Of a stretch of 64,000 nucleotides of DNA, positions 711 through 60,118 are shown in pieces. The notes beneath the pieces were generated by a model. It made no database searches. It saw only the letters and a list, made by a program, of their open reading frames with translations, and was not told the DNA's origin. The translations under genes and the position numbers were made by a program. Position 1 is the stretch's first letter; every line of letters begins with the position of its first letter. The stretch is from Arctopsyche grandis (Eukaryota > Arthropoda > Insecta > Trichoptera > Hydropsychidae), in assembly GCF_051622035.1 (NCBI RefSeq), contig NC_135360.1:16062501-16126500 (forward strand), in the 5' to 3' direction.

Positions 711-6583
<5,873 letters not shown>

Positions 6584-37302: not shown

Positions 37303-37789
37303 ATATTTATTGAGTTGTTTTGTGAAATTTTGATACTGATTTGAATGTCCAATGCTTAATCGTTTGATTTTTGGGGTTTTCACTTGGACGTAATATAGAA
37401 ATATATATGTACCGGATATAATATTAAAAAAAATGTTTTTAAATATTTCAAAACATTTGTACGTATTTAATTATGTACATTAGTATCTTAATTAGATAAT
37501 CTATAAAAGCTATTAGGCAAATGCAAATGACGTTAATTTTATAATTTATTTTATCTTAAGTGCACAAATTTTATACAGATTGTTAGTAAGTGTTATTGTT
37601 TTTCTAATTATTTTATTAATTCATTCGTAATAAATAAATACTCACGGTATCAATATAAAATTAAAATATTAAACATAATATGAACTATTATAATTTTCCA
37701 TTTTATTTTTTTCTTTTACTCTATTAGAAATAGTTAAATTATGAATTTACTTATAAATAGATTGATTTTAAATTTTCAGATTTTTAAAG

Positions 37790-39284
37790 ATGTTGATTCG
37801 ACTACAGAGCAGATGTTTTCAAATATTTTTATTATGCTTCCATGCAACGCTATGTATGGGTATGGATAACTTGCGAGTTGCTTTCGAGTGGAAACAACTC
37901 GATTTTGCATATCCGAACGAACAAATGCGAGAAGAAGCAATAAAAAATGAAGATTTTATACCTGAAAACAATATTCCTGTTGGGCTTGAAGTTTCCGGAG
38001 AGAGGTTGTTTGTAACGGTGCCAAGGTGGAAGCCTGGAGTTCCAGCATCACTAACATATGTTCCTTTAAATGGTGAATTTAAATTCTTTTTCATTTCATA
38101 AAATTCAAACAAAAAATTTACCCCAAACGCAGCTATAGAAGCTTTTACTTAAAATAAATTTTAATAAAACATTGTTGAATTATTTTTCAGATACAAATGC
38201 GGCATCTCCAAAGTTGATACCATATCCTAATTGGTCAGCTCATAGATTCACCGAAGGAAATGAACCAGAACTGGTATCTCCTTTCCGAGTCAGAGCTGAT
38301 CGTTGTGATCGTCTTTGGGTTTTAGATAGCGGCTTGTCAGATTTGCTCGGTAATGTTACCGTAGTATCACAACCTCAGCTTGTCGTCTATGACCTGAGAA
38401 CAGACCAGCTTATGAGACGTTTCACAATTCCACCAGCACAATTAGAAGAAGAGTCTTTTTTTGCGAACATTGCTGTTGAAGATACTTCATGTGAAGACAG
38501 TTATGCATACGCTGCCGATCTTGGCTCACCTGGACTTGTTGTATACTCTTGGCGATATCAAACATCGTGGAGAGTGAAACATCACTATTTCCACCCGGAT
38601 CCACTATCTGGTGATTTTAATGTTACTGGAATTAATTTTCAATGGGAAGATGCACTTTTTGGTTTGGGATTATCTGCTCCTGGATCCGATGGGTTCAGCA
38701 CTCTTTATTTCCATCCGTTGGCTAGCACTAATGAGTTTTCTGTTTCCACAAAAATTCTTAGGAATGAATCCTTAGCCAACAGCAGTTTCGATGAATTTAA
38801 ATTGTTGGGAAATAGAGGTCCAAACGCCCAGTCTAATGTAGAATTTGTCGACAAATCTACAGGTGTTTTATTTTATGCTTTGGTTAATTTAAATGCTGTT
38901 GCATGCTGGAAAACTACAAACAAAGCATACACCATTGAGTCTCAAGGTAGAATTTATATGAGCAATTTGACAATGGTATTCCCTAATGACATCAAAGTTG
39001 ACGATAAAGGAAATTTGTGGGTCCTTTCCGATAGACTTCCAACATTTATGTATTCAAAATTAGACAGTGAAGATGTAAATTTCAGAATATTAACTGCATC
39101 CGTAAAAGATGCCATTCGAGGAACTGCATGCGATTCCAAACCAAACATTGAAATGATCAAAAAATTCGCCAACGATACTTTGAACAAACTTAAGAAGCTT
39201 GGCACTTCGAATTCCGCTCTTTCGAATACTTCATATATACAAACAGTATTATTATTTGTCGTCTCCATTTTCATATTGTCTTAA
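37790..39284 (+). CDS. yellow / major royal jelly family secreted protein, 458 aa
   Basis: Yellow-family proteins are secreted insect beta-propeller proteins linked to cuticle melanisation, behaviour and reproduction. Coding exons 37790-38072 and 38191-39284; the first coding exon begins at 37780 after a clear acceptor, so a non-coding 5' exon must lie upstream and was not located. Residues 1-24 form a signal peptide. The yellow signature follows: LRVAFEWKQLDFAYP, FIPENNIPVGLEV, LFVTVPRWKPGVPASL, LIPYPNW, RLWVLDSG, FFANIAVE, YAYAADLG, GLVVYSW, HPDPLSGDFNVTGINFQW, STLYFHPLAS, NAVACW and NLWVLSDRLP. Several N-glycosylation sites are present. Length is usual for the family. Unusually, the last 20 or so residues are strongly hydrophobic after a short SNTS stretch, suggesting a membrane or GPI-anchor signal. 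The paralogue class (b, c, d and so on) was not settled. AATAAA at 39480 follows. Confidence 0.93.
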
Positions 39285-40280: not shown

Positions 40281-41586
40281 ATGGTGGAAAAAAGTGGGGA
40301 AACTGAGAGAAGAATAAAAAAAACGTTTAAAGAAAAATGCACTCATTGTATCAGTGGACCAAAACAAATAATAAGAACAACAATTCTCTTAACTTGCACC
40401 GTAGTGGTTGTTTATCAGGCAAGTTATCAAACATTCGTGACATGTATGCTATCAAAATGTTAAATACGTTAAAAATAAATGCTCTTTATTTCACTAACTT
40501 ACCTCCATTGCTTTCCGAGTTGAAATCTGATGATTTTATTTATTTACTTAGATAAATTATGTCTGATATGGTTTGCTACATTTTAGTCGTTCTCCACTAA
40601 TTAGATACATATTCATGTTTAATTTATAAATTGAAAAATATTGTTCTGTTTTTTAATAACACAAATATCACTTTAGATTGGAGAATGTTTAAGAAAAATA
40701 AGAAATCCTCCAATTACGACGTATACACATTTTGACTTCAATGATACTGTAAAATATCCTGCTATTACGATTTGTAGAGATCCGCCTTATAAAAATGATG
40801 TATTACAAGTAAGTTATTACATTGGTTATTATACTTGTAAACACAGAATCCAACTAAAAGTTCATTGTGATAAATTGGTTGATGTCTCTGTTAAACTCAA
40901 AATTAATCAGAAATGTACAACTTGTGTTAGCTGTGATAATAAATATTATGCACTCACCTGTATAGGTGATAAAAAATGAAGTCTGAAAAACATTTGTAAA
41001 CGTACTATTTGATATTTAACCAGGAACATGGATTATACGGACATCCTCGCTATACTTCTGAATGGAGAAATTTCAACTTTAGTAATGTAAATTTGGACGA
41101 ATTTTGGAGAGAAGCCACTTACAGTGATAAGGACAATTTCATATCTGCTGGCCTCAATTCTATCAATAGTTGTAATTTAATTTAATTATGTTATTATATA
41201 ATTAGATAATATTACAAGAATTGTATCTTAAATTTACTTTTTTGACTGTCCTAAAAAGATATAGAAGTTGTCAACAGCTTACATTTTGTATTGGGTCAAT
41301 GTCAAACTGTTTCTCCTAAAATTTATGTATCGACAGTTTCCAAGAATACTGGATATTCGATATTACTCAATCACTCCATGCTAGAAATTGATACTACTTC
41401 AAGTACTATACCACCTGGATATCACATCTTCGTTCATCAAGCCAATGAGCCGTTTGCAGGTATTTTGAGTTCAGTATTTTCAGTGATATAATCCAATTTC
41501 CAACAAAAAAACAATCTTTCAATAGTATTACATAATAGTTAATAGTTACAGTACCCATTTTTCCATCTATGCAGCAAATTCTATAT

Positions 41587-41668
<82 letters not shown>

Positions 41669-43155
41669 CGTACATACATATCTATATTGCAGCACTAACT
41701 TGACATATTTATAAAACGCGATAAATCGACATATTTATAATTCAACTTCAGATAAGTGTAATATTTTTATTATTAATTTGTTTTCCAATAATTCTGGTGC
41801 TGTGGACAAGTATATATATAAATACTTAAAATTAAATTCAAAGTTATAGATTATATATGTTTAAACTGCACCCTATTATAAAACCATCTTAATTTTTAAA
41901 TGGATAATTCTCGATGGGATAATATAGGTACATATGTATGTACAAGTGAATATTTTAGATGTAGATTAAACCAATGAATACAAACACGCAATGAATCTAT
42001 GCAACTTGCATTTATCTTTTCTAAAAAAATACTCCATAACCAATAATTCCAAAACATATTATTGGCAAGAGAAAGTTTATTTATTAGAAGATATATTTAA
42101 CAACCTTCCGAAAATTTTAAACTTTGAACAAAGGGTTTCTGAAAACCTACTGTATCAGAGTATTGAATATTTTATAATATTTATGTACATGGGGTGTATT
42201 ATAAAATATATATATAACTAGCTGAACCCAGCATGCGTGGTAATGCCACAATAACGCAAGCAATTCCCGTTCCCGTTCCCGTTTCTCGATGTGTTTCGAT
42301 AAGTGAATACTTCAGTTTCAAATTAATACTTAATCAAATTAAATTAGAGTAATGATAATCTGTTGGGAAAACACAGGCAGCGAACAAATTTGAAATTATT
42401 CAATTTTTTGTTTATTTTACCCTAACAACGCAGGTGGAGACGCGAAAACATTTGAAATTGTTGCTTTGCAATGTTACTCATTCCCGTTTTTCCCGTTTCC
42501 GTTCCCGTTTTTGGGCGATTTTTTACAGAAACCATCGCGGACATACACACAATAACTCCTGTAAGTTTCATTGCAATCGGTTGAATGGTATAGGAACGCA
42601 TACGTGACAGGCAAACATTGATTTTTATATACAATATAGAATTGAAGAAATGTAATTATAAATGAGACTTCAAAATTCATATGTACATATATTTTTGGTA
42701 GAGCATTTGTCCGTTAGTCTCATGGAACATTTATATGTAAACGTTGGCGAAGAATTGGAAGTCAAATTGGGAGTTCAACAACTTAATATGCTATCCACTG
42801 GACCTAAAAATTGTCAGACTGAAGATGATTACAGCGCAACATTGGTAAGAGTTACATATTTGAAAATTTTAATGATTTATATTATTTATTATAGAAATAA
42901 TTTTTCAAATAAAATGTAAATTATAATATGTAATTGCTTTCGAGTCGTTGGTTACTCTAAAAAGCTCTCACAATATAAGATAATCAAAATAATTTTTATA
43001 TTTATCAAAACAGTGTGTTGAAAAATGCGTATGGGATAGCATTATAGATGAAGTCGGATGTTCTGGCCCTTGGATGAAGACTGATATTCCATATTGTAGT
43101 AACTATACTGCCATGAAAGAACTTATAGTTAATTATATCAGGTAGATTAAATTAG

Positions 43156-43186
<31 letters not shown>

Positions 43187-43890
43187 CATAAATTATATAT
43201 TTATTAAATTGTACACGAAATTTGAACAGTCATTAAAAATTGTATTAAACATCAGGTTTTCAAATAAAGCGGATTGCGCTTGTCAACAGCGGTGTCGATC
43301 GATGATATACAGTACTTACGTAATGGATAGGAATTCACTGACCGTGTGGAATTCTGCAACTGGTGTGTGGGATGATAAACACGGAGTTCATAAACTACAA
43401 ACACAAGTATTGAACAAAATAATATGTAATTCATATTTGAAAATATAAAAACTATATGTTGTTTTTCAAATGATTTTAGCTCTATATATATTTCAACAAT
43501 AAATTAGTTTCCGTTTATGAAGAGAATCATAGCTATGATTGGTCATTGTTTTTGGCAGATTTTGGTGGTAGCATGGTAGTATAATCTTAATGGAAATGAT
43601 GTGCTATTTTAATTAAAATGAATAGTATTTGAAAATTTATGCTATTTCAGGGATTTCTTCTAGGACTTTCTGTACTCGGAGTTATTCTTATCTTAGAAGA
43701 TATATTCGACAGTTGTATTAAGCCTTTGGTTTCTTCTGATTCAGAAAAATCAACGAAAGATAATAGAGATAAAAAAATCAGTGTCTCTAGCGAAAGCAGT
43801 TGCAGCATCAATTATAATGATAAAAGTGATATCCTGAAAGATTACAATAAATTTAATATTAAGAGTATTGAAAAAAATTTCTATATGTAA
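40281..43890 (+). CDS. DEG/ENaC (pickpocket-type) sodium channel subunit, 457 aa
   Basis: A subunit of a trimeric amiloride-sensitive-type cation channel of the plasma membrane; insect pickpocket genes act in mechano-, chemo- and osmosensation. Exons: 40281-40418, 40677-40808, 41024-41168, 41259-41459, 42702-42844, 43014-43141, 43256-43406, 43480-43575, 43651-43890; open throughout (1374 nt). M1 lies at about residues 28-46 (TTILLTCTVVVVYQ), followed by the family's post-M1 motif as KYPAITICRDPPY. The extracellular domain includes cysteine motifs CVEKCVWD, GCSGPW and CACQQRCRS. M2 near 372-400 reads DFGGSM then GFLLGLSVLGVILILEDIFD, containing the G-L-S selectivity-filter triplet. The cytoplasmic tail is Ser/Lys-rich. 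The first intron uses a GC donor (CAG|GCAAGT) rather than GT. The intron 3 donor (A|GTTGTA) is weak and the least certain junction. Intron 4 holds a TA microsatellite and a dispersed repeat. AATAAA lies at 43897 and 44143. Confidence 0.9.
41588..41665. repeat. (TA)n microsatellite in channel intron 4
   Basis: An uninterrupted run of TA dinucleotides. Confidence 0.95.
42218..42640 (+). repeat. dispersed CTAGCTGA repeat, copy 1
   Basis: Begins ACTAGCTGAACCCAGCATGC and ends with ATTGCAATCGGTTGAATGG, GGAACGCATACGTGACAGGC and a TATA-rich tail. It shares this order of blocks with 51254-51625. It is a common type of insect interspersed repeat; its class was not determined. It lies in channel intron 4. 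Confidence 0.6.
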
Positions 43891-46508
43891 CTAACTAATA
43901 AATATTTTTATAATTTTAATTTCGTAGAAAGTATCTAATATGAACATACAATTGTATTTTTATTTTTTTTTAAATTTTGATTTTTTAACATGTGTATGTT
44001 CTTATCTGTGGATATATTTTATTTGTGTTTTAAAAAAAAATTAATACGTGTTGTTGACAAACACATAGTCTATAGAATTTATAATTTAGTAATTCCATGT
44101 ATTTTATGTCAGGCGATCATGTGAACATTGCATGTTTTGATAAATAAACTATACAATTCATAAACAAATATAGTTTTTTCCAATATTAGTTGTTTTCAAA
44201 ACAAAAATGCTTACATATTTATGTAATATATTATATAATGTAAAACTAAATTTGATACATTGTGCAGTACATAATATACTATACATATTATGTATAGTAA
44301 ACTTTCGATTTTCCGAGTGCAGATTATCTGGTTTGTGGATTATCGGTGCATGAATTCAATATTTTTTAAATAAAAGCATGTAAAAAAAAAGATTTTTTAT
44401 ACCACCTTCAATTCAAACCATAGATTATGAAGTCATGTATGTATTTCATCAATGAAATATCGATACCTTAAGCTGGTAAGATTTAAGTAATCCTGGGCTT
44501 CCATGGACTTTGATATACAAATAATAGTCACAATACAGACTTTATTGAGGTGAATTGACCAATAAGTATATAAAATGTAGTATATAAAACTTAAAGAAAA
44601 GATCTTCAGAAATACACAAAAATCACAGATTTTCTTAATAAATATGTAACAAACGAATAAACCTACTTTCTGCATTAGAAATACATACGTAATGTACTAC
44701 ATAGTTTAACACGAAAGAAAAGTCGATAGTTTATTTTATTCGCATTTTTAATAATCAGTATCACCCCATCCCCCTATTATGCGGGTGAATATGTATGTAT
44801 GTATTATGTAAAAAAAAGGCACTGAATTAAAAAATTATGTAGAATAGAGTTTTCTATCAAAACCGAACTGTAAAGGCTATAATACGAAAGACTATACGTA
44901 TCTACATATAATATGAAAGACAATAATACGAAAGTATTTATTATCAAATATACCTACATGTGATAAATTAAAAAAAATCTTTTTAATTAGTGAGATAATT
45001 ATATATTCACATATTTATAATGATAGTCAGATAGTGGGAACTAATTTATAATTTTTGTTTGTAACGAAGAATTTAAACATTGGAACCAATTTTATTTCAA
45101 AATTTTAGATAAACCTTCTTTAGTAGGTTTATTTATTAGGCAAAAAATCAAACTTTATTAATCAAGTTTACTTTTATCGTCGTAAAATTTAATAGTACTT
45201 TTTTTTTAAGAAATCTGAAATCATCAAATGTAAAATAAGAAAATATTTCAAATTGATAATATCACATGTTAAATAAATAATTAATAACACGGATCTCACA
45301 AGTCACGGATCTCACAAGTCACGGATCTCACAAGTTACGGATCAAGTGATAAGAGTGGAGATCAAAACACTATTAACTGCATACTGCATATTTATTTTAT
45401 GAAACTAGATTTTACTAGAAACTAATCAATTAATTATTGCAATTGCATAGATAATACGACTTCATTATTGTAATTAGATAGTTATATAATTGAACTTATG
45501 AATTATTATAAAAGTTTTAAGCAATAAAAATTTAGGCAATTTCAAACGCCCAAAATATTATTACATTTATACACATTTGCATTATCTTAAATGTAATACA
45601 ATTTATTCATAGATTATTTCTGGCAGAAACATCTTCTTTTGATAGATGAATGAAAAAGTTGTATTTTTAAATGGAAACTGTTGTTCAAAAATTTGCAGTG
45701 TTAATTATAATTAAACAAAAATTCTCAAATATGCCAATTATGGAATATAATGAAATTTAGATATGTACAAGGAAGAAGAGGTTATTCATCTAGATTTTAA
45801 TTTTATGTGACTACGCAAACCCATTATACTATCCAGTATTTTATATTTAAATATGCCATGTATAAAAGTCTAGTTTTGATTAGATAAATTTAAGATGAAA
45901 TAGTATTTTTTTTTGTGTTTCATTTTCCTTAATTTTTTTTTGATAATTTTTATTCTCGCAAATTTCTGTTTTGTTTACATTATTTGCCAAAACATTGATA
46001 GTAAAATAATACATAGATATCAAACCTTTGAATTAAAATTAGTGCTAAATATTATTTTAATGGAAAATTATATTTTTTAAATAAATAAAATTTTATTATT
46101 TTATAATATCCATAAAAACTGTAATTAATTATAACATAACAACAAGCGCTTAATTATATAACATAATTATAATAAAGCAGGTGGAAAAATTTATGAAATA
46201 TGAAGGGAAAATCTTCTCGTAAAATGTATTAATAAATTTTGTAGAATTTGTAAAAGCTTAAATTTATTAATAATAATAATAGTTCTTAGTTTTACTTGAT
46301 GGCAATATAAAACGTTACACATTTGAAAAATAAAATTGTTATCTACCGCTTACGGCAAACGGCGAATTGTTTATAATTAAAATGGGGAAAAACTTACACG
46401 AGAATTATACATAATTGCGCATATAAACAATGTTTATGTTTTGATCATTTCTGATTGGCTTATTTTTCTCCCTCCATTTTATTGTGTTGAGCTTTATCGA
46501 ACATTCGG
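43891..46508. other. intergenic DNA between channel and repeat-protein gene
   Basis: AT-rich and without coding sequence. 44297-44350 (AACTTTCGATTTTCCGAG...) resembles a fragment of a pogo/Tigger-type terminus, at low confidence. Confidence 0.45.
45289..45344 (+). repeat. 16-bp tandem repeat, ~3.5 units
   Basis: Units of ACGGATCTCACAAGTC repeat three times with a shortened final unit, about 1.2 kb upstream of the TATA box of the repeat-protein gene. Confidence 0.85.
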
Positions 46509-46567
46509 TATAAAAGCACGAATACTGGAATTGAATTTTATTAGTCGTGCTTTGAGCATTGCAAACT
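46509..46567 (+). promoter_or_regulatory. TATA box, initiator and non-coding exon 1 of repeat-protein gene
   Basis: TATAAAAG at 46509-46516 is followed, at a spacing of about 30 bases, by TTAGTC at 46541, a good arthropod initiator. A short non-coding exon then runs to a strong donor GTAAGT at 46568. The acceptor TTTTCAG ends at 46738. This is the only textbook core promoter in the window. Confidence 0.7.
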
Positions 46568-46780
46568 GTAAGTATATACATAAGTATACATACAAACTAC
46601 AAAATCATTAATTCACTAATATTATTGTATAACAATATTCAATAGTTTACCATATTAATTCATATGTATACTATAATTTTCAATATTAATACATTTATTA
46701 TGTTAAACTGAAATTTTCTAATTGTTTATTCTTTTCAGATATCAAGAAGTTTTCAACACTCAAACTACACAAAAATAAAA

Positions 46781-49700
46781 ATGGCACAAGTGCAACTAAA
46801 TACAACTTTCAAAACCTTTGACTTCTTAAAATCTGAAGCGGAAAATAAGAATGTTGACTTCTTATTCTTGGACTTTCTAAATAAAACTGGCCGATTTCTA
46901 AAGCTGTTCGTTGAAAACAAACCGGAAGGGTTCCTCAAACAAGAAGATTTCCTTGATTTCCTGAAATTCGTAGAGGACAAAGCCCCACAAGACTTCATGT
47001 TCCTGACTTTCCTCAACAAATTCGTTGACAACAAGCCATTCTTATTCTTGAACTTCCTCAACTTCTTGAACCTGTTCGTCGAAAGCAAACCAGAAGGGTT
47101 CCTCAAACAAGAAGATTTCCTCGACTTCTTGAAATTCGTGGAGGACAAAGCCCCACAAGACTTCATGTTCCTGACTTTCCTCAACAAATTCGTTGACAAC
47201 AAACCATTTTTATTCTTGAACTTCCTCAACTTCTTGAACCTGTTCGTCGAAAGCAAACCAGAAGGGTTCCTCAAACAAGAAGATTTCCTCGACTTCCTGA
47301 AATTCGTGGAGGACAAAGCCCCACAAGACTTCATGTTCCTGACTTTCCTCAACAAATTCGTTGACAACAAACCATTCTTATTCTTGAACTTCCTCAACTT
47401 CTTGAACCTGTTCGTCGAAAGCAAACCAGAAGGGTTCCTCAAACAAGAAGATTTCCTGGATTTCCTGAAATTCGTAGAGGACAAAGCCCCACAAGACTTC
47501 ATGTTCCTGACTTTCCTCAACAAATTCGTTGACAACAAACCATTCTTATTCTTGAACTTCCTCAACTTCTTGAACCTGTTCGTCGAAAGCAAACCAGAAG
47601 GTTTCCTCAAACAAGAAGATTTCCTGGATTTCCTGAAATTCGTGGAGGACAAAGCCCCACAAGACTTCATGTTCCTGACTTTCCTCAACAAATTCGTTGA
47701 CAACAAGCCATTTTTATTCTTGAACTTCCTCAACTTCTTGAACCTGTTCGTCGAAAGCAAACCAGAAGGGTTCCTCAAACAAGAAGATTTCCTGGATTTC
47801 CTGAAATTCGTAGAGGACAAAGCCCCACAAGACTTCATGTTCCTGACTTTCCTCAACAAATTCGTTGACAACAAACCATTCTTATTCTTGAACTTCCTCA
47901 ACTTCTTGAACCTGTTCATCGAAAGCAAACCAGAAGGGTTCCTCAAACAAGAAGATTTCCTGGATTTCCTGAAATTCGTGGAGGACAAAGCCCCACAAGA
48001 CTTCATGTTCCTGACTTTCCTCAACAAATTCGTTGACAACAAACCATTCTTATTCTTGAACTTCCTCAACTTATTGAACCTGTTCATCGAAAGCAAACCA
48101 GAAGGGTTCCTCAAACAAGAAGATTTCCTGGATTTCCTGAAATTCGTGGAGGACAAAGCCCCACAAGACTTCATGTTCCTGACTTTCCTCAACAAATTCG
48201 TTGACAACAAACCATTCTTATTCTTGAACTTCCTCAACTTCTTGAACCTGTTCATCGAAAGCAAACCAGAAGGGTTCCTCAAACAAGAAGATTTCCTGGA
48301 TTTCCTGAAATTCGTGGAGGACAAAGCCCCACAAGACTTCATGTTCCTGACTTTCCTCAACAAATTCGTTGACAACAAACCATTCTTATTCTTGAACTTC
48401 CTCAACTTCTTGAACCTGTTCGTCGAAAGCAAACCAGAAGGGTTCCTCAAACAAGAAGATTTCCTGGATTTCCTGAAATTCGTGGAGGACAAAGCCCCAC
48501 AAGACTTCATGTTCCTGACTTTCCTCAACAAATTCGTTGACAACAAGCCATTCTTATTCTTGAACTTCCTCAACTTCTTGAACCTGTTCGTCGAAAGCAA
48601 ACCAGAAGGGTTCCTCAAACAAGAAGATTTCCTGGATTTCCTGAAATTCGTAGAGGACAAAGCCCCACAAGACTTCATGTTCCTGACTTTCCTCAACAAA
48701 TTCGTTGACAACAAGCCATTCTTATTCTTGAACTTCCTCAACTTCTTGAACCTGTTCGTCGAAAGCAAACCAGAAGGGTTCCTCAAACAAGAAGATTTCC
48801 TGGATTTCCTGAAATTCGTAGAGGACAAAGCCCCACAAGACTTCATGTTCCTGACTTTCCTCAACAAATTCGTTGACAACAAACCATTCTTATTCTTGAA
48901 CTTCCTCAACTTCTTGAACCTGTTCGTCGAAAGCAAACCAGAAGGGTTCCTCAAACAAGAAGATTTCCTGGATTTCCTGAAATTCGTGGAGGACAAAGCC
49001 CCACAAGACTTCATGTTCCTGACTTTCCTCAACAAATTCGTTGACAACAAGCCATTCTTATTCTTGAACTTCCTCAACTTCTTGAATCTGTTCATCGAAA
49101 GCAAACCAGAAGGGTTCCTCAAACAAGAAGATTTCCTGGATTTCCTGAAATTCGTGGAGGACAAAGCCCCAAAAGACTTCATGTTCCTGACTTTCCTCAA
49201 CAAATTCGTTGACAACAAGCCATTCTTATTCTTGAACTTCCTCAACTTCTTGAACCTGTTCGTCGAAAGCAAACCAGAAGGGTTCCTCAAACAAGAAGAT
49301 TTCCTCGACTTCCTGAAATTCGTGGAGGACAAAGCCCCCCAAGACTTCATGTTCCTGACTTTCCTCAACAAATTCGTTGACAACAAGCCATTCTTATTCT
49401 TGAACTTCCTCAACTTCTTGAACCTGTTCGTCGAAAGCAAACCAGAAGGGTTCCTCAAACAAGAAGATTTCCTGGATTTCCTGAAATTCGTAGAGGACAA
49501 AGCCCCACAAGACTTCATGTTCCTGACTTTCCTCAACAAATTCGTTGACAACAAACCATTCTTATTCTTGAACTTCCTCAACTTCTTGAACCTGTTCGTC
49601 GAAAGCAAACCAGAAGGGTTCCTCAAACAAGAAGATTTCCTGGATTTCCTGAAATTCGTGGAGGACAAAGCCCCACAAGACTTCATGTTCCTGACTTTCC

Positions 49701-50191
49701 TCAACAAATTCGTTGACAACAAACCATTCTTATTCTTGAACTTCCTCAACTTCTTGAACCTGTTCATCGAAAGCAAACCAGAAGGGTTCCTCAAACAAGA
49801 AGATTTCCTGGATTTCCTGAAATTCGTAGAGGACAAAGCCCCACAAGACTTTATGTTTATTGACTTTATGAACAAAGGAGATTTTCTTCAAAACTTTTTG
49901 GAGATATCTAACGAAAAGCAAACATTTGTCGAAGAAAACCCATCGTACGATTTCGTACAGGTATTGTTAAAAATTGATTTTACATTTTTCTAATTTTTTA
50001 TGAAGATATAATTTTTTAATTGAAACATTTTATTTAATAGAGTTGTGGTGAAGCCCCATTTTATTCTACCGCATCCAACTTTTTGGCAGTGTAAGTTTTT
50101 TTAATTAATTACATTTAAATATACTTATTAGTTCGTATAATGATAGATCACAATAATAATTTTTATTTATTATTACAGAGCATGCTGTTAA
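46781..50191 (+). CDS. orphan Phe/Leu-rich tandem-repeat protein, 1080 aa
   Basis: Family not recognised and function unknown. Coding exons 46781-49960, 50041-50090 and 50179-50191, all GT-AG, preceded by a non-coding exon. The ATG follows an A-rich AAAATGG context and is the first in frame. Residues 1-40 are a unique N-terminus (MAQVQLNTTFKTFDFLKS) with no signal peptide. From about residue 41, eighteen tandem 56-residue units follow (the last cut short), each made of three sub-repeats beginning FVESKPEG, FVEDKAPQD and FVDNKPF and ending in FL-x-FL-x patterns. Each full unit has 13 Phe and 10 Leu in 56, with no Cys, Trp, Tyr, His or Arg. The spacing suggests amphipathic helices. After about residue 1024 the C-terminus is unique (NKGDFLQNFLEISNEKQTF) and ends SCGEAPFYSTASN...VACC, where the only cysteines occur. 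AATAAA lies at 50303. Strong expression is inferred from the TATA promoter. It could be a structural, lipid-associated or secretory product; none of these is shown. Confidence 0.85.
46901..49850 (+). repeat. 168-bp coding tandem repeat, 18 units
   Basis: Unit starts recur exactly every 168 bp from 46901 to 49757. Units differ at only a few positions (GTA/GTG, CTCGAC/CTGGAT, GTC/ATC, AAGCC/AAACC), with variants shuffled among units. The first unit is the most diverged. Confidence 0.97.
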
Positions 50192-51253
50192 TTTGACAAG
50201 TCTTGGTATTCCCCTGTTGGCTATTGGATTTTTGTAATTGTGTAGTCCGACAAAAATGAAGTATTTGTACATATTTGTATTATATTATAATATTTTTATT
50301 TAAATAAACAGAAGCATATAAATTTAAAAAAAAATTGTTTTTTTTATATTTACTATACAAACCTACATATGTATGTACATATGTATTTAATATTACAAAG
50401 TCAATATACACAAATACATTTTTATTTTATATTAGTATGTTAAGTTTTGTAGATATTCGTACATGTATATTTACATATCATACTATATTTTGTCAAAGTA
50501 CATTACAAAAATGATATAAAAAGATATTAATTTCGTAACTTTTACATCATATTATACATCTGTTCATATGTACATGCAGTCAAAAAATGTTAAATAAAAT
50601 CAATTATTTTTTCACTGATTCGAAAATTTTCTTTAATAAATAAATATGTAGTTTGTATTTTCTTTACAAAATACATATGTAGTTTTTACATACATATATA
50701 TATGTGTATGTATATACTTACTATTTTATATTTTATATTAATTAATTGGATATAATATTCATTTGTACATATGTATTATACATTTAAGAAATGGAAAAAA
50801 AATCGTATCTTGTGGAAAATGGGACATAACGCATTATTCATGCGGAATTATTTACGTTACTGGTGAATCATTATGTGCATCAGAATGCAGAAAACATCTG
50901 GTTGAACCAAAATACACAACACATACACACACACGGATTTTGTAATTTTCATTTTTCATTGGATGATTGTATGAAAATTTCTGAAACAACTTTTCTTTCG
51001 GTTGATGTTTTGGTATAAGTCGTATATTCTATAATCTGTAGTATACTTAATCTAAATACGAGCATTAATAAAATATAATAATTTTGGGCCAGTATGTCAT
51101 AATATTGACCTAAAATCCCGTACCATCTGAATGTTTAAAATTTTGGAAAAATGTTTAGGAAACAATAGGAGGTTAAAACTTTTTATTAATCAAACCATGT
51201 ACATACATACACATATATGTATTTATGCATGTATGTATTTATGTAACATACAT
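50192..51253. other. 3' UTR of repeat-protein gene and intergenic DNA
   Basis: AATAAA at 50303-50308 lies 112 bases after the stop. Beyond it is AT-rich DNA with many ACATATGTA-type palindromes and no gene. Confidence 0.5.
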
Positions 51254-54125: not shown

Positions 54126-54577
54126 AATTTTTTTTTTTTCATATTTTTCATATTTTTCATATTTTTCAGTTTTTTCATATTTTTCAGTTTTTTTCAGGTT
54201 TTTTCAGTTTTTTTCATAATTTTCATTTTTTTCATAATTTTCATTTTTTTCAGTTTTTTAATTTTTTTCATTTTTTTCAGTTTTTTCATTTTTTTCATTT
54301 TTTCAGTTTTTTCATTTTTTTTCATTTTTTCAGTTTTTTCATTTTTTTCATTTTTTCAGTTTTTTCATTTTTTTCATTTTTTTCATTTTTTCAGTTTTTT
54401 CATTTTTTTCATTTTTTCAGTTTTTTCATTTTTTCAGTTTTTTCATTTTTTTCATTTTTTCAGTTTTTTCATTTTTTTCATTTTTTCAGTTTTTTCATTT
54501 TTTTCATTTTTTTCATTTTTTCAGTTTTTTCATTTTTTTCATTTATTTCATTTTTTCAGTTTTTTCATTTTTTTCAT
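54126..54577 (+). repeat. T-rich simple repeat, TTTTTTCAT / TTTTTTCAG units
   Basis: About 450 bases almost wholly of T-runs punctuated by CA, CAG or CAT. It gives spurious Phe/Ile/Ser ORFs. Confidence 0.95.
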
Positions 54578-55060
54578 TGCCGGGGGCGCTGGCGGCGCCG
54601 AAGGCGTCAGCGGCGCTGGGGGCGAAGCCCCCGGGGTGCCGAAGGCATCGGGGCGCTGGGGGCGCCGGAGGCGTCGGCGGCGCTGGGGGCGAAGCCCCCG
54701 GGATGCCGAAGGCATCGGGGACGCTGGGGGCGAAGCCCCCGGGGTGCCGAAGGCATCGGGGGGGCTGGGGGCGCCGGAGGCGTCGGCGGCGCTGGGGGCG
54801 AAGCCCCCGGGATGCCGAAGGCATCGGGGACGCTGGGGGCGAAGCCCCCGGGGTGCCGAAGGCATCGGGGGGGCTGGGGGCGACGGGATGCCGAAGGCAT
54901 CGGGGACGCTGGGGGCGAAGCCCCCGGGGTGCCGAAGGCATCGGGGGGGCTGGGGGCGCCGGAGGCGTCGGCGGCGCTGGGGGCGCCGGAGGCGTCGGCG
55001 GCGCTGGGGCCGAAGGCCCCGGAGCGACGGAGGCATCGGGGGCAAAGGCGTCAGGAGGTC
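54578..55060. repeat. GC-rich minisatellite with GGCGAAGCCCCCGG and CCGAAGGCATCGG modules
   Basis: Two alternating modules, one with GGGGGCGAAGCCCCC and one with GATGCCGAAGGCATCGG, are repeated irregularly in roughly 60-130-bp blocks. Both modules are palindromic hairpin formers. Composition is well over 70% GC, in the sharpest contrast with the adjacent T-rich block. Confidence 0.9.
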
Positions 55061-55099
55061 GGCGATGCACAAAACGTAGTTCGTAATTCGTAATCACTT

Positions 55100-59345: not shown

Positions 59346-60118
59346 CATATATATTATATATACATAGTACCGTTTACCATGCACCCTTTTTTTTTGATCT
59401 TTTGACTTTAAATCTTTCAATTTTTGATCTTTGCCTTCCGATATTTGCTTTTTCGACCATTTCACTTTCAGTCCCATGAGGTAGACCATTAAAATAGATA
59501 TAAGATGTATTGTGAACATAATTTCGTAATAATAAAAGGCATTTAAAAATAAAAAAAAAAATGTAATGTGTGTGTAACGTATCGAAACAGCAGCAGCCGA
59601 CACGATCCATTGATATTATACAGCAGTACATGTCACCGACACGTATCAATCAGAACCGGTTTTCTTTTAGCATTGTGGAACTAGTTAAGCATGACGTGAC
59701 GTTATAGTCGCAAGTGCACCAGTACTAAATAAATTCATTTTATACAGCGGTACATGTCATCGAAACGTATCAAATAGAACAGGTTATCTTTGATCACTGT
59801 GGAAATATTCACGCATGACGTGACGTCAGAGTGGCGAGTGCAACCATACTAACGAAAGTGTTGCCAGGTGCATATGAATATTTTCGGAAACGTCATATGG
59901 TGACAATATTGACTTGACGATATGAAGCAAGCAATATTGCGCCGTATCTTCGTGCTCTGTAGTGTTAATTTAAGTCGATTTTGCCTTGCACTCGTTCAAA
60001 ACCAGTACGAACGTGCAGAAAACGGGCGGTGCTGTCTAGTATGAATAGAAGTAGTATTTTCCGTGCAATGTTGTGCCGAGCTGTTGACGTGAAGTGCTGG
60101 ATAATACGTGTAAACGGA

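Follow-up and report, generated by a model that had tools for sequence, protein, structure and literature searches.

The question raised by this locus is whether an open frame consisting almost throughout of one phenylalanine- and leucine-rich repeat belongs to a gene at all and, if so, what kind of protein it encodes. Within the window, i.e., the 64-kb stretch of Arctopsyche grandis DNA analyzed as a whole, the predicted gene spans approximately positions 46540 to 50320 of the plus strand, and from the ATG at 46781 to the stop ending at 50191 it would yield 1080 amino acids once spliced. A preceding sequence-only reading had proposed such a spliced gene with a TATA promoter, and the signals found here (a TATA element with an initiator, splice sites and a poly-A signal) bear this out as a prediction from sequence (Table 1). 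For the pair TATAAAAG...TTAGTC, the window contains a single occurrence where shuffles predict 0.04, for a spacing range that was chosen post hoc with the site already seen, while TATAAAAG by itself is near chance (11 in the window vs. 8.8). The number of exons had to be corrected, since three had been claimed and the predicted model features four exons and three introns, with an untranslated exon 1. All three introns (46568-46738, 49961-50040, and 50091-50178) show GT-AG ends. As assumed from the promoter, exon 1 contains an in-frame stop (the upstream frame reads LVVL*ALQT...) and therefore would not allow an N-terminal extension of the protein. Only 50 and 13 coding bases fall into the last two exons. 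Retention of the second intron would shorten the product to 1070 residues ending in KIDFTFF and retention of the third to 1077 residues ending in ...NFLAV, so that the terminal ...VACC requires the third intron to be spliced. The earlier claim that cysteines are confined to the C-terminal end holds true, as they occur only at residues 1062, 1079, and 1080.

Table 1. Predicted features of the repeat gene and its antisense frame (window coordinates)
Feature	Position	Strand	Remark
Core promoter: TATAAAAG at 46509, initiator-like TTAGTC 24 bp downstream	46509..46546	+	Single match within window
Exon 1, predicted untranslated	46540..46567	+	Start assumed from promoter; donor GTAAGT at 46568
Exon 2, predicted: leader, ATG 46781 and 1060 codons	46739..49960	+	Acceptor TTCTTTTCAG
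Exon 3, predicted (SCGEAPFYSTASNFLAV)	50041..50090	+	Intron GT49961..AG50040
Exon 4, predicted: ACC, stop ending 50191, AATAAA at 50303	50179..50320	+	3' end assumed
N-terminal 42 residues including diverged half-unit (TFKTFDFLKSEAENKNVDFLFLDFLNK)	46781..46906	+	33% identity to unit 1
17 complete 56-residue (168-bp) units, each of three ~18-residue modules starting FV[ED]xK	46907..49762	+	
Unit 18: conserved ~32 residues, then diverged (...DFMNKGDFLQNFLEISNEKQTFVEENPSYDFVQ)	49763..49960	+	73% identity to unit 1
Antisense open frame, 1040 codons	46765..49887	-	One minus frame of the 56-codon unit without stops

The repeat structure of the 1080-residue protein was confirmed, with 17 complete 56-residue Phe/Leu units and a partial 18th. 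The anchor F[VI]E.KPEGFL is present 18 times and all 17 gaps between the anchors measure exactly 56 residues; at the DNA level, TRF reports 17.6 copies of period 168 with a 98% match, and the array is free of stops and frameshifts. A count in the unit gave the 13 Phe and 10 Leu claimed before. The N-terminus, previously described as unique, is not wholly so, because a diverged half-unit lies within it. Since this N-terminal part aligns to a half-unit and the C-terminal stretch to a diverged unit, the array looks like the homogenized middle of a longer, older repeat. The unit in turn has an inner three-fold repeat that the sequence-only reading had not described, with FVESKPEGFLKQEDFLDFLK, FVEDKAPQDFMFLTFLNK, and FVDNKPFLFLNFLNFLNL being alike. 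With cut points picked by eye, the summed alignment score of these three modules is 99 compared with -15 (sd 13) for shuffled units, none of 2000 scoring as high. With cut points optimized in real and shuffled units alike, 99 stands against a mean of 3.6 (sd 12.6) and a largest value of 42, and again no shuffle (0 of 200) reached the real score.

A tandem repeat whose length is divisible by three keeps any open frame open, and the antisense strand of the array is likewise open. Both observations would be expected if there were no gene here and the frame had arisen by accident in a coding-looking satellite. The variation among the units makes this very improbable. The 18 distinct nucleotide variants comprise 14 synonymous and 4 non-synonymous changes in the sense frame, a synonymous excess with p = 8.8e-8 over the 19% expected from random single changes in the unit (94 synonymous to 394 non-synonymous, plus 16 stops). 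In four of the five other frames this excess is absent (p 0.82-0.99), and in the open antisense frame it is weaker (10 of 18, p = 0.0016); under a transitions-only expectation the values are 5.1e-4 for the sense and 0.1 for the antisense frame. The antisense excess is read as reflecting third positions that face third positions, and the antisense frame itself is most readily explained as a side effect of the repetition. Further arguments against a satellite are that the sense frame runs on through the diverged N- and C-terminal parts, that promoter, splice and poly-A signals are present, and that the genome search found one locus only. Accounting for the ratio of 14 to 4, the protein appears to be conserved, and the repeat looks to be under selection at the protein level.

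The units vary in DNA and reveal exchange among each other. Of the 17 complete units, 12 are identical in protein sequence, and 13 distinct DNA sequences are found among the 17; five site pairs violate the four-gamete condition, and unit 1 differs most from the consensus (6 differences, 0-4 in the others). Judged from these patterns, the units recombine through unequal exchange or gene conversion, a process that the edge unit escapes. Adjacent units are slightly more alike (2.9 mean differences) than units more than eight apart (3.9). At two-fold Y sites, C-ending codons account for 21 of 23 in the unit, where the repetition reduces the bias to few independent events, for 16 of 34 in the gene's own flanks, and for 32 of 97 in the neighboring yellow ORF. 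High expression could account for this bias, as could biased gene conversion. A-ending codons at K/E/Q (11 of 12) are at odds with a preference simply for C or G. The strongest GC skew in the 2-kb profile of the window lies at 46001-50000 (-0.18 and -0.25), which is consistent with an array whose sense strand is rich in C (C 0.26, G 0.15).

Paralogues were searched for in the 475.7-Mb assembly (189 contigs), in which the window occupies positions 16062501-16126500 of contig C6; the search scores only the best candidates. Two units as protein query gave 17 matches, all in the array, and the unit DNA gave 18 matches in the array alone. The N-terminus matched only itself, and the C-terminus matched itself and one further site at 17.8 bits, which was taken as chance. 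Within the window and with the gene masked, the best candidate for a second copy (E 0.036, 24.6 bits) fell into a zinc-finger region at 4660-4782 and was likewise read as chance. At the sensitivity of this search, the predicted gene is single copy in its own genome.

Described families were addressed with several libraries. In Pfam, the first 1060 residues matched RTP1_C1 (PF10363; 3e-25, 88.9 bits) and KN_motif (1.3e-7), both above the cut-offs and without a single significant stretch. One unit matched KN_motif at E 0.43 and nothing else, and two units stayed below every cut-off, reaching 15.1 bits for RTP1_C1 compared with the required 25.9. Tandems of shuffled units passed a curated cut-off in one of three cases, namely for the unrelated Ig_RSC4 at 3.9e-11. 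As single and double units fail and one of three shuffled tandems passes, both whole-protein matches were rejected as artefacts of repetition. The comparison with alpha-helical solenoids such as the HEAT-like RTP1_C1 is affected by the same result: the three short hydrophobic modules of each unit would be appropriate for a solenoid and the summed Pfam match points there, but two units fall short of the cut-off and a shuffled tandem matches another family comparably. Med31 was rejected as well, with 18.4 bits for the 1060 residues and 20.5 bits when eight units in tandem were used alone, against a cut-off of 25. Insects also possess tandem hydrophobic repeats in the Bla g 1 / G12 proteins, the insect allergen-related repeat (PF06757), which the protein resembles in this respect; the family was not among the matches in Pfam (1060 residues, one and two units), where matches above E 0.1 are mostly removed by the HMMER filters, or in the PDB.

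The PDB sequence search revealed no relatives, the best values being E 0.23 and, in a second search, 0.044 over 23 residues. The candidates dehaloperoxidase (E 0.23-0.6; 0.38-0.94), endochitinase (0.82), and internalin (0.044) were regarded as short chance matches. Four fragments searched against NCBIfam reached at best 16.7 bits compared with a cut-off of 360, and two short peptides used as patterns, sensitive to close relatives only, found nothing in the viral contigs of IMG/VR. Literature searches returned no papers for the peptide strings of the repeat and, for keywords, none relevant by titles or the beginnings of abstracts. Thus, the description as an orphan without a match to a described family stands across Pfam, NCBIfam, PDB, IMG/VR, and the own genome, whereby orphan refers to the libraries searched and the host is the only insect genome or proteome covered. 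The gene is presumably lineage-restricted.

Besides the repeat gene, the window and the genome offered several observations in their own right. A Yellow/MRJP-family gene lies at 37772-39284, with a dopachrome conversion enzyme as the best PDB match (E 1.1e-79), followed at 40677-43890 by exon pieces resembling a pickpocket/ENaC channel, whose hand-joined PF00858 match (18.5 bits) is below the cut-off of 23.6. A long polyglutamine tract (CAA/CAG) at 6122-6583 occupies an open frame near C2H2 zinc-finger-like exons, and two tandem 124-bp copies with an 81% match are found at 59609-59852. Rfam and ARAGORN returned nothing within the window. At 54130-55080, a (TTTTTTTCA)n tract adjoins an array of about 500 bp and ~80% GC together with a shared tail, and this dispersed bipartite repeat had at least 61 matches in the genome, drawn from the best 40 of 646 candidates. 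In all three copies examined, the T-rich tract lies to one side and an identical 30-base tail to the opposite side; one copy is reversed. The repeat looks like a mobile-element family. Elsewhere in the genome, an intact-looking mitochondrial COI with flanking frames resembling ND2 and COII (G000:C1:36082829-36087169) lies inside a 42.7-Mb contig and would stem either from a recent insertion into the nuclear genome or from a join made during assembly. This COI copy looks hemipteran, perhaps psyllid, but two Diaphorina citri COI primers did not match (0 of 2 with up to 3 mismatches). The search for (TTAGG)6 gave 27,414 and 19,447 overlapping matches, which, among those listed, include an array near the end of contig C1 at 42.66 Mb and interstitial tracts on the same contig; a telomerase RNA-binding domain was found in the genome as well. 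Flies are not known to possess these two features, so that a fly as the host is improbable. The TACATACATATGTA motif, with 24 matches against 0.1 expected, had at first pointed to a higher dipteran, a reading that was abandoned for this reason.

In the protein, Phe accounts for 22.3% and Leu for 17.0% of the residues, half of all residues are hydrophobic, and each unit holds three prolines. The predicted pI is 4.5 and the net charge about -60, with a single Arg, two Tyr, and neither Trp nor His. The aromatic residues F+Y+W amount to 22.5% and are nearly all Phe. Hexamerins and arylphorins are rich in aromatic residues (above about 15%), and the content here is higher still. It may be asked whether the protein is an intracellular Phe reserve that supplies tyrosine, cuticle tanning or melanin and is comparable in function to arylphorin, which it resembles in being an aromatic-rich insect protein. 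The yellow-type gene of the dopachrome-conversion kind lies about 7 kb upstream, with the channel-like exons in between, and this proximity is weak evidence. Such a store is quite improbable, since only two of the aromatic residues are Tyr and the residues other than Phe are conserved, which is unexpected for a mere store. Moreover, the protein is a tandem repeat without a hexamerin domain (the Pfam scan contained no hemocyanin-type domains) and without a sign of a signal peptide, whereas hexamerins are secreted according to PMC3242770. The statement that a signal peptide is missing agrees with the hydropathy of the predicted model, as no N-terminal hydrophobic core was seen within the first 40 residues (best 15-residue Kyte-Doolittle mean 0.45; hydropathy only); an unseen alternative exon might supply one.

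For the fold, the suggestion that amphipathic helices are stacked is no more than plausible. In 11-residue windows, each module reaches a hydrophobic moment of 0.5-0.6 at 100 degrees, but longer windows are weaker (0.07-0.48 for 14 residues, 0.08-0.22 for 18 residues; windows with an inner proline being skipped), and the prediction of helix does not extend over the whole unit. The optimum angle often lies at 115-125 degrees, and the strongest hydrophobic harmonics are, in descending order, 2.95, 18.67, and 3.5 residues. Chou-Fasman, a weak method, predicts mostly helix for module 1 and for the beginning of module 2, and mostly strand from there on through module 3. The latter would fit a condensate or amyloid-type assembler, i.e., a Phe-rich low-complexity chain that separates into phases or forms strands instead of helical repeat domains, and so would the repetition and the Phe content of 22%. 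Still, this appears unlikely given that the Uversky plot places the protein on the folded side (H 0.505 vs. boundary 0.433), that FG dipeptides are missing, and that the charged turn residues are kept in nearly all units. FG-repeat nucleoporins, which are built of Phe-bearing tandem repeats as well, differ in that the protein contains no FG dipeptide in 1080 residues (GF 18) and is hydrophobic in half of its residues.

The coating of lipid, likewise suggested before, received divided support. The Wimley-White interfacial sum of the whole unit is unfavorable (+4.9 kcal/mol), whereas among three hand-chosen segments of the unit (+4.2, -0.8, and -4.5) the third module is favorable and the second slightly so. 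On the octanol scale, the region around the third module is favorable with -7.0 and could thus make contact with membranes; no transmembrane-grade 19-residue stretch was seen by Kyte-Doolittle (max KD19 1.04). An amphipathic repeat protein that lines the surface of lipid droplets or of other membranes, in the way perilipin 4 and apolipoproteins do, would agree with these third-module sums, with the moments in 11-residue windows, and with the many tandem repeats without indels. Perilipin 4 (Plin4; PMC5889406) consists of 29 33-mers and, like the present protein, strings together a great many nearly identical units with no indels. It differs in its periods (33/11, compared with 56/18 here), and the array described here is acidic with three prolines per unit. 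According to Table 1 of PMC5889406, the composition is opposite, with an aromatic fraction of 0.002 and a charged fraction of 0.15 in Plin4 against 0.23 and 0.27 in the repeat protein. The eight leading harmonics do not include periods near 11 (11.2 and 3.73), and Pfam found no Perilipin domain in residues 1-1060, the part of the protein that was scanned. Together with the unfavorable whole-unit sum, the prolines and the acidic net charge, this leaves a lipid coat improbable.

The reading preferred here, held at slightly less than even confidence, is a real, single-copy, probably lineage-restricted gene that was expanded by units and would encode an intracellular structural protein that is folded or ordered and assembles with itself. 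The C-biased codons, the missing signal and transmembrane stretches, and the Uversky plot, in which the protein falls on the folded side, were counted in its favor; the beta propensity in modules 2 and 3, the octanol value of -7.0, the A-ending codons, and the weaker significance of the synonymous excess under a transitions-only expectation count against it. According to this proposal, a ~54-bp module would have been tripled to the 168-bp unit, and the middle of the gene would then have been expanded by unequal exchange and gene conversion of that unit. The resulting protein would comprise about 54 short Phe/Leu-rich modules with charged turns containing K(A)P between them, which may pack into a single long and regular particle through contacts of the Phe/Leu faces or, alternatively, line up laterally to form an insoluble body or filament inside the cell. 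The silk gland, saliva and fat body named in the sequence-only reading are guesses. The product would probably be made in quantity in one tissue, and the three C-terminal cysteines might, quite speculatively, cross-link the chain or anchor it to lipid. A further-reaching version, which has to be regarded as rather doubtful, is an undescribed class of self-assembling protein, i.e., a solenoid or fibre of ~54 Phe/Leu modules grown from an 18-residue module in one insect lineage by concerted evolution and serving as an abundant intracellular body or lipid-contacting scaffold.

It is unusual, to our knowledge, for a natural protein to combine 22% Phe with a strict, selected 56-residue repeat and no indication of a secretion signal. 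If the protein folds, it would represent a naturally evolved, near-ideal repeat protein that is accessible with three units; if it does not, it would be a Phe-rich assembler outside the FG class. For the gene itself, the locus would provide an example of lengthening by the tripling of a module and subsequent concerted evolution.
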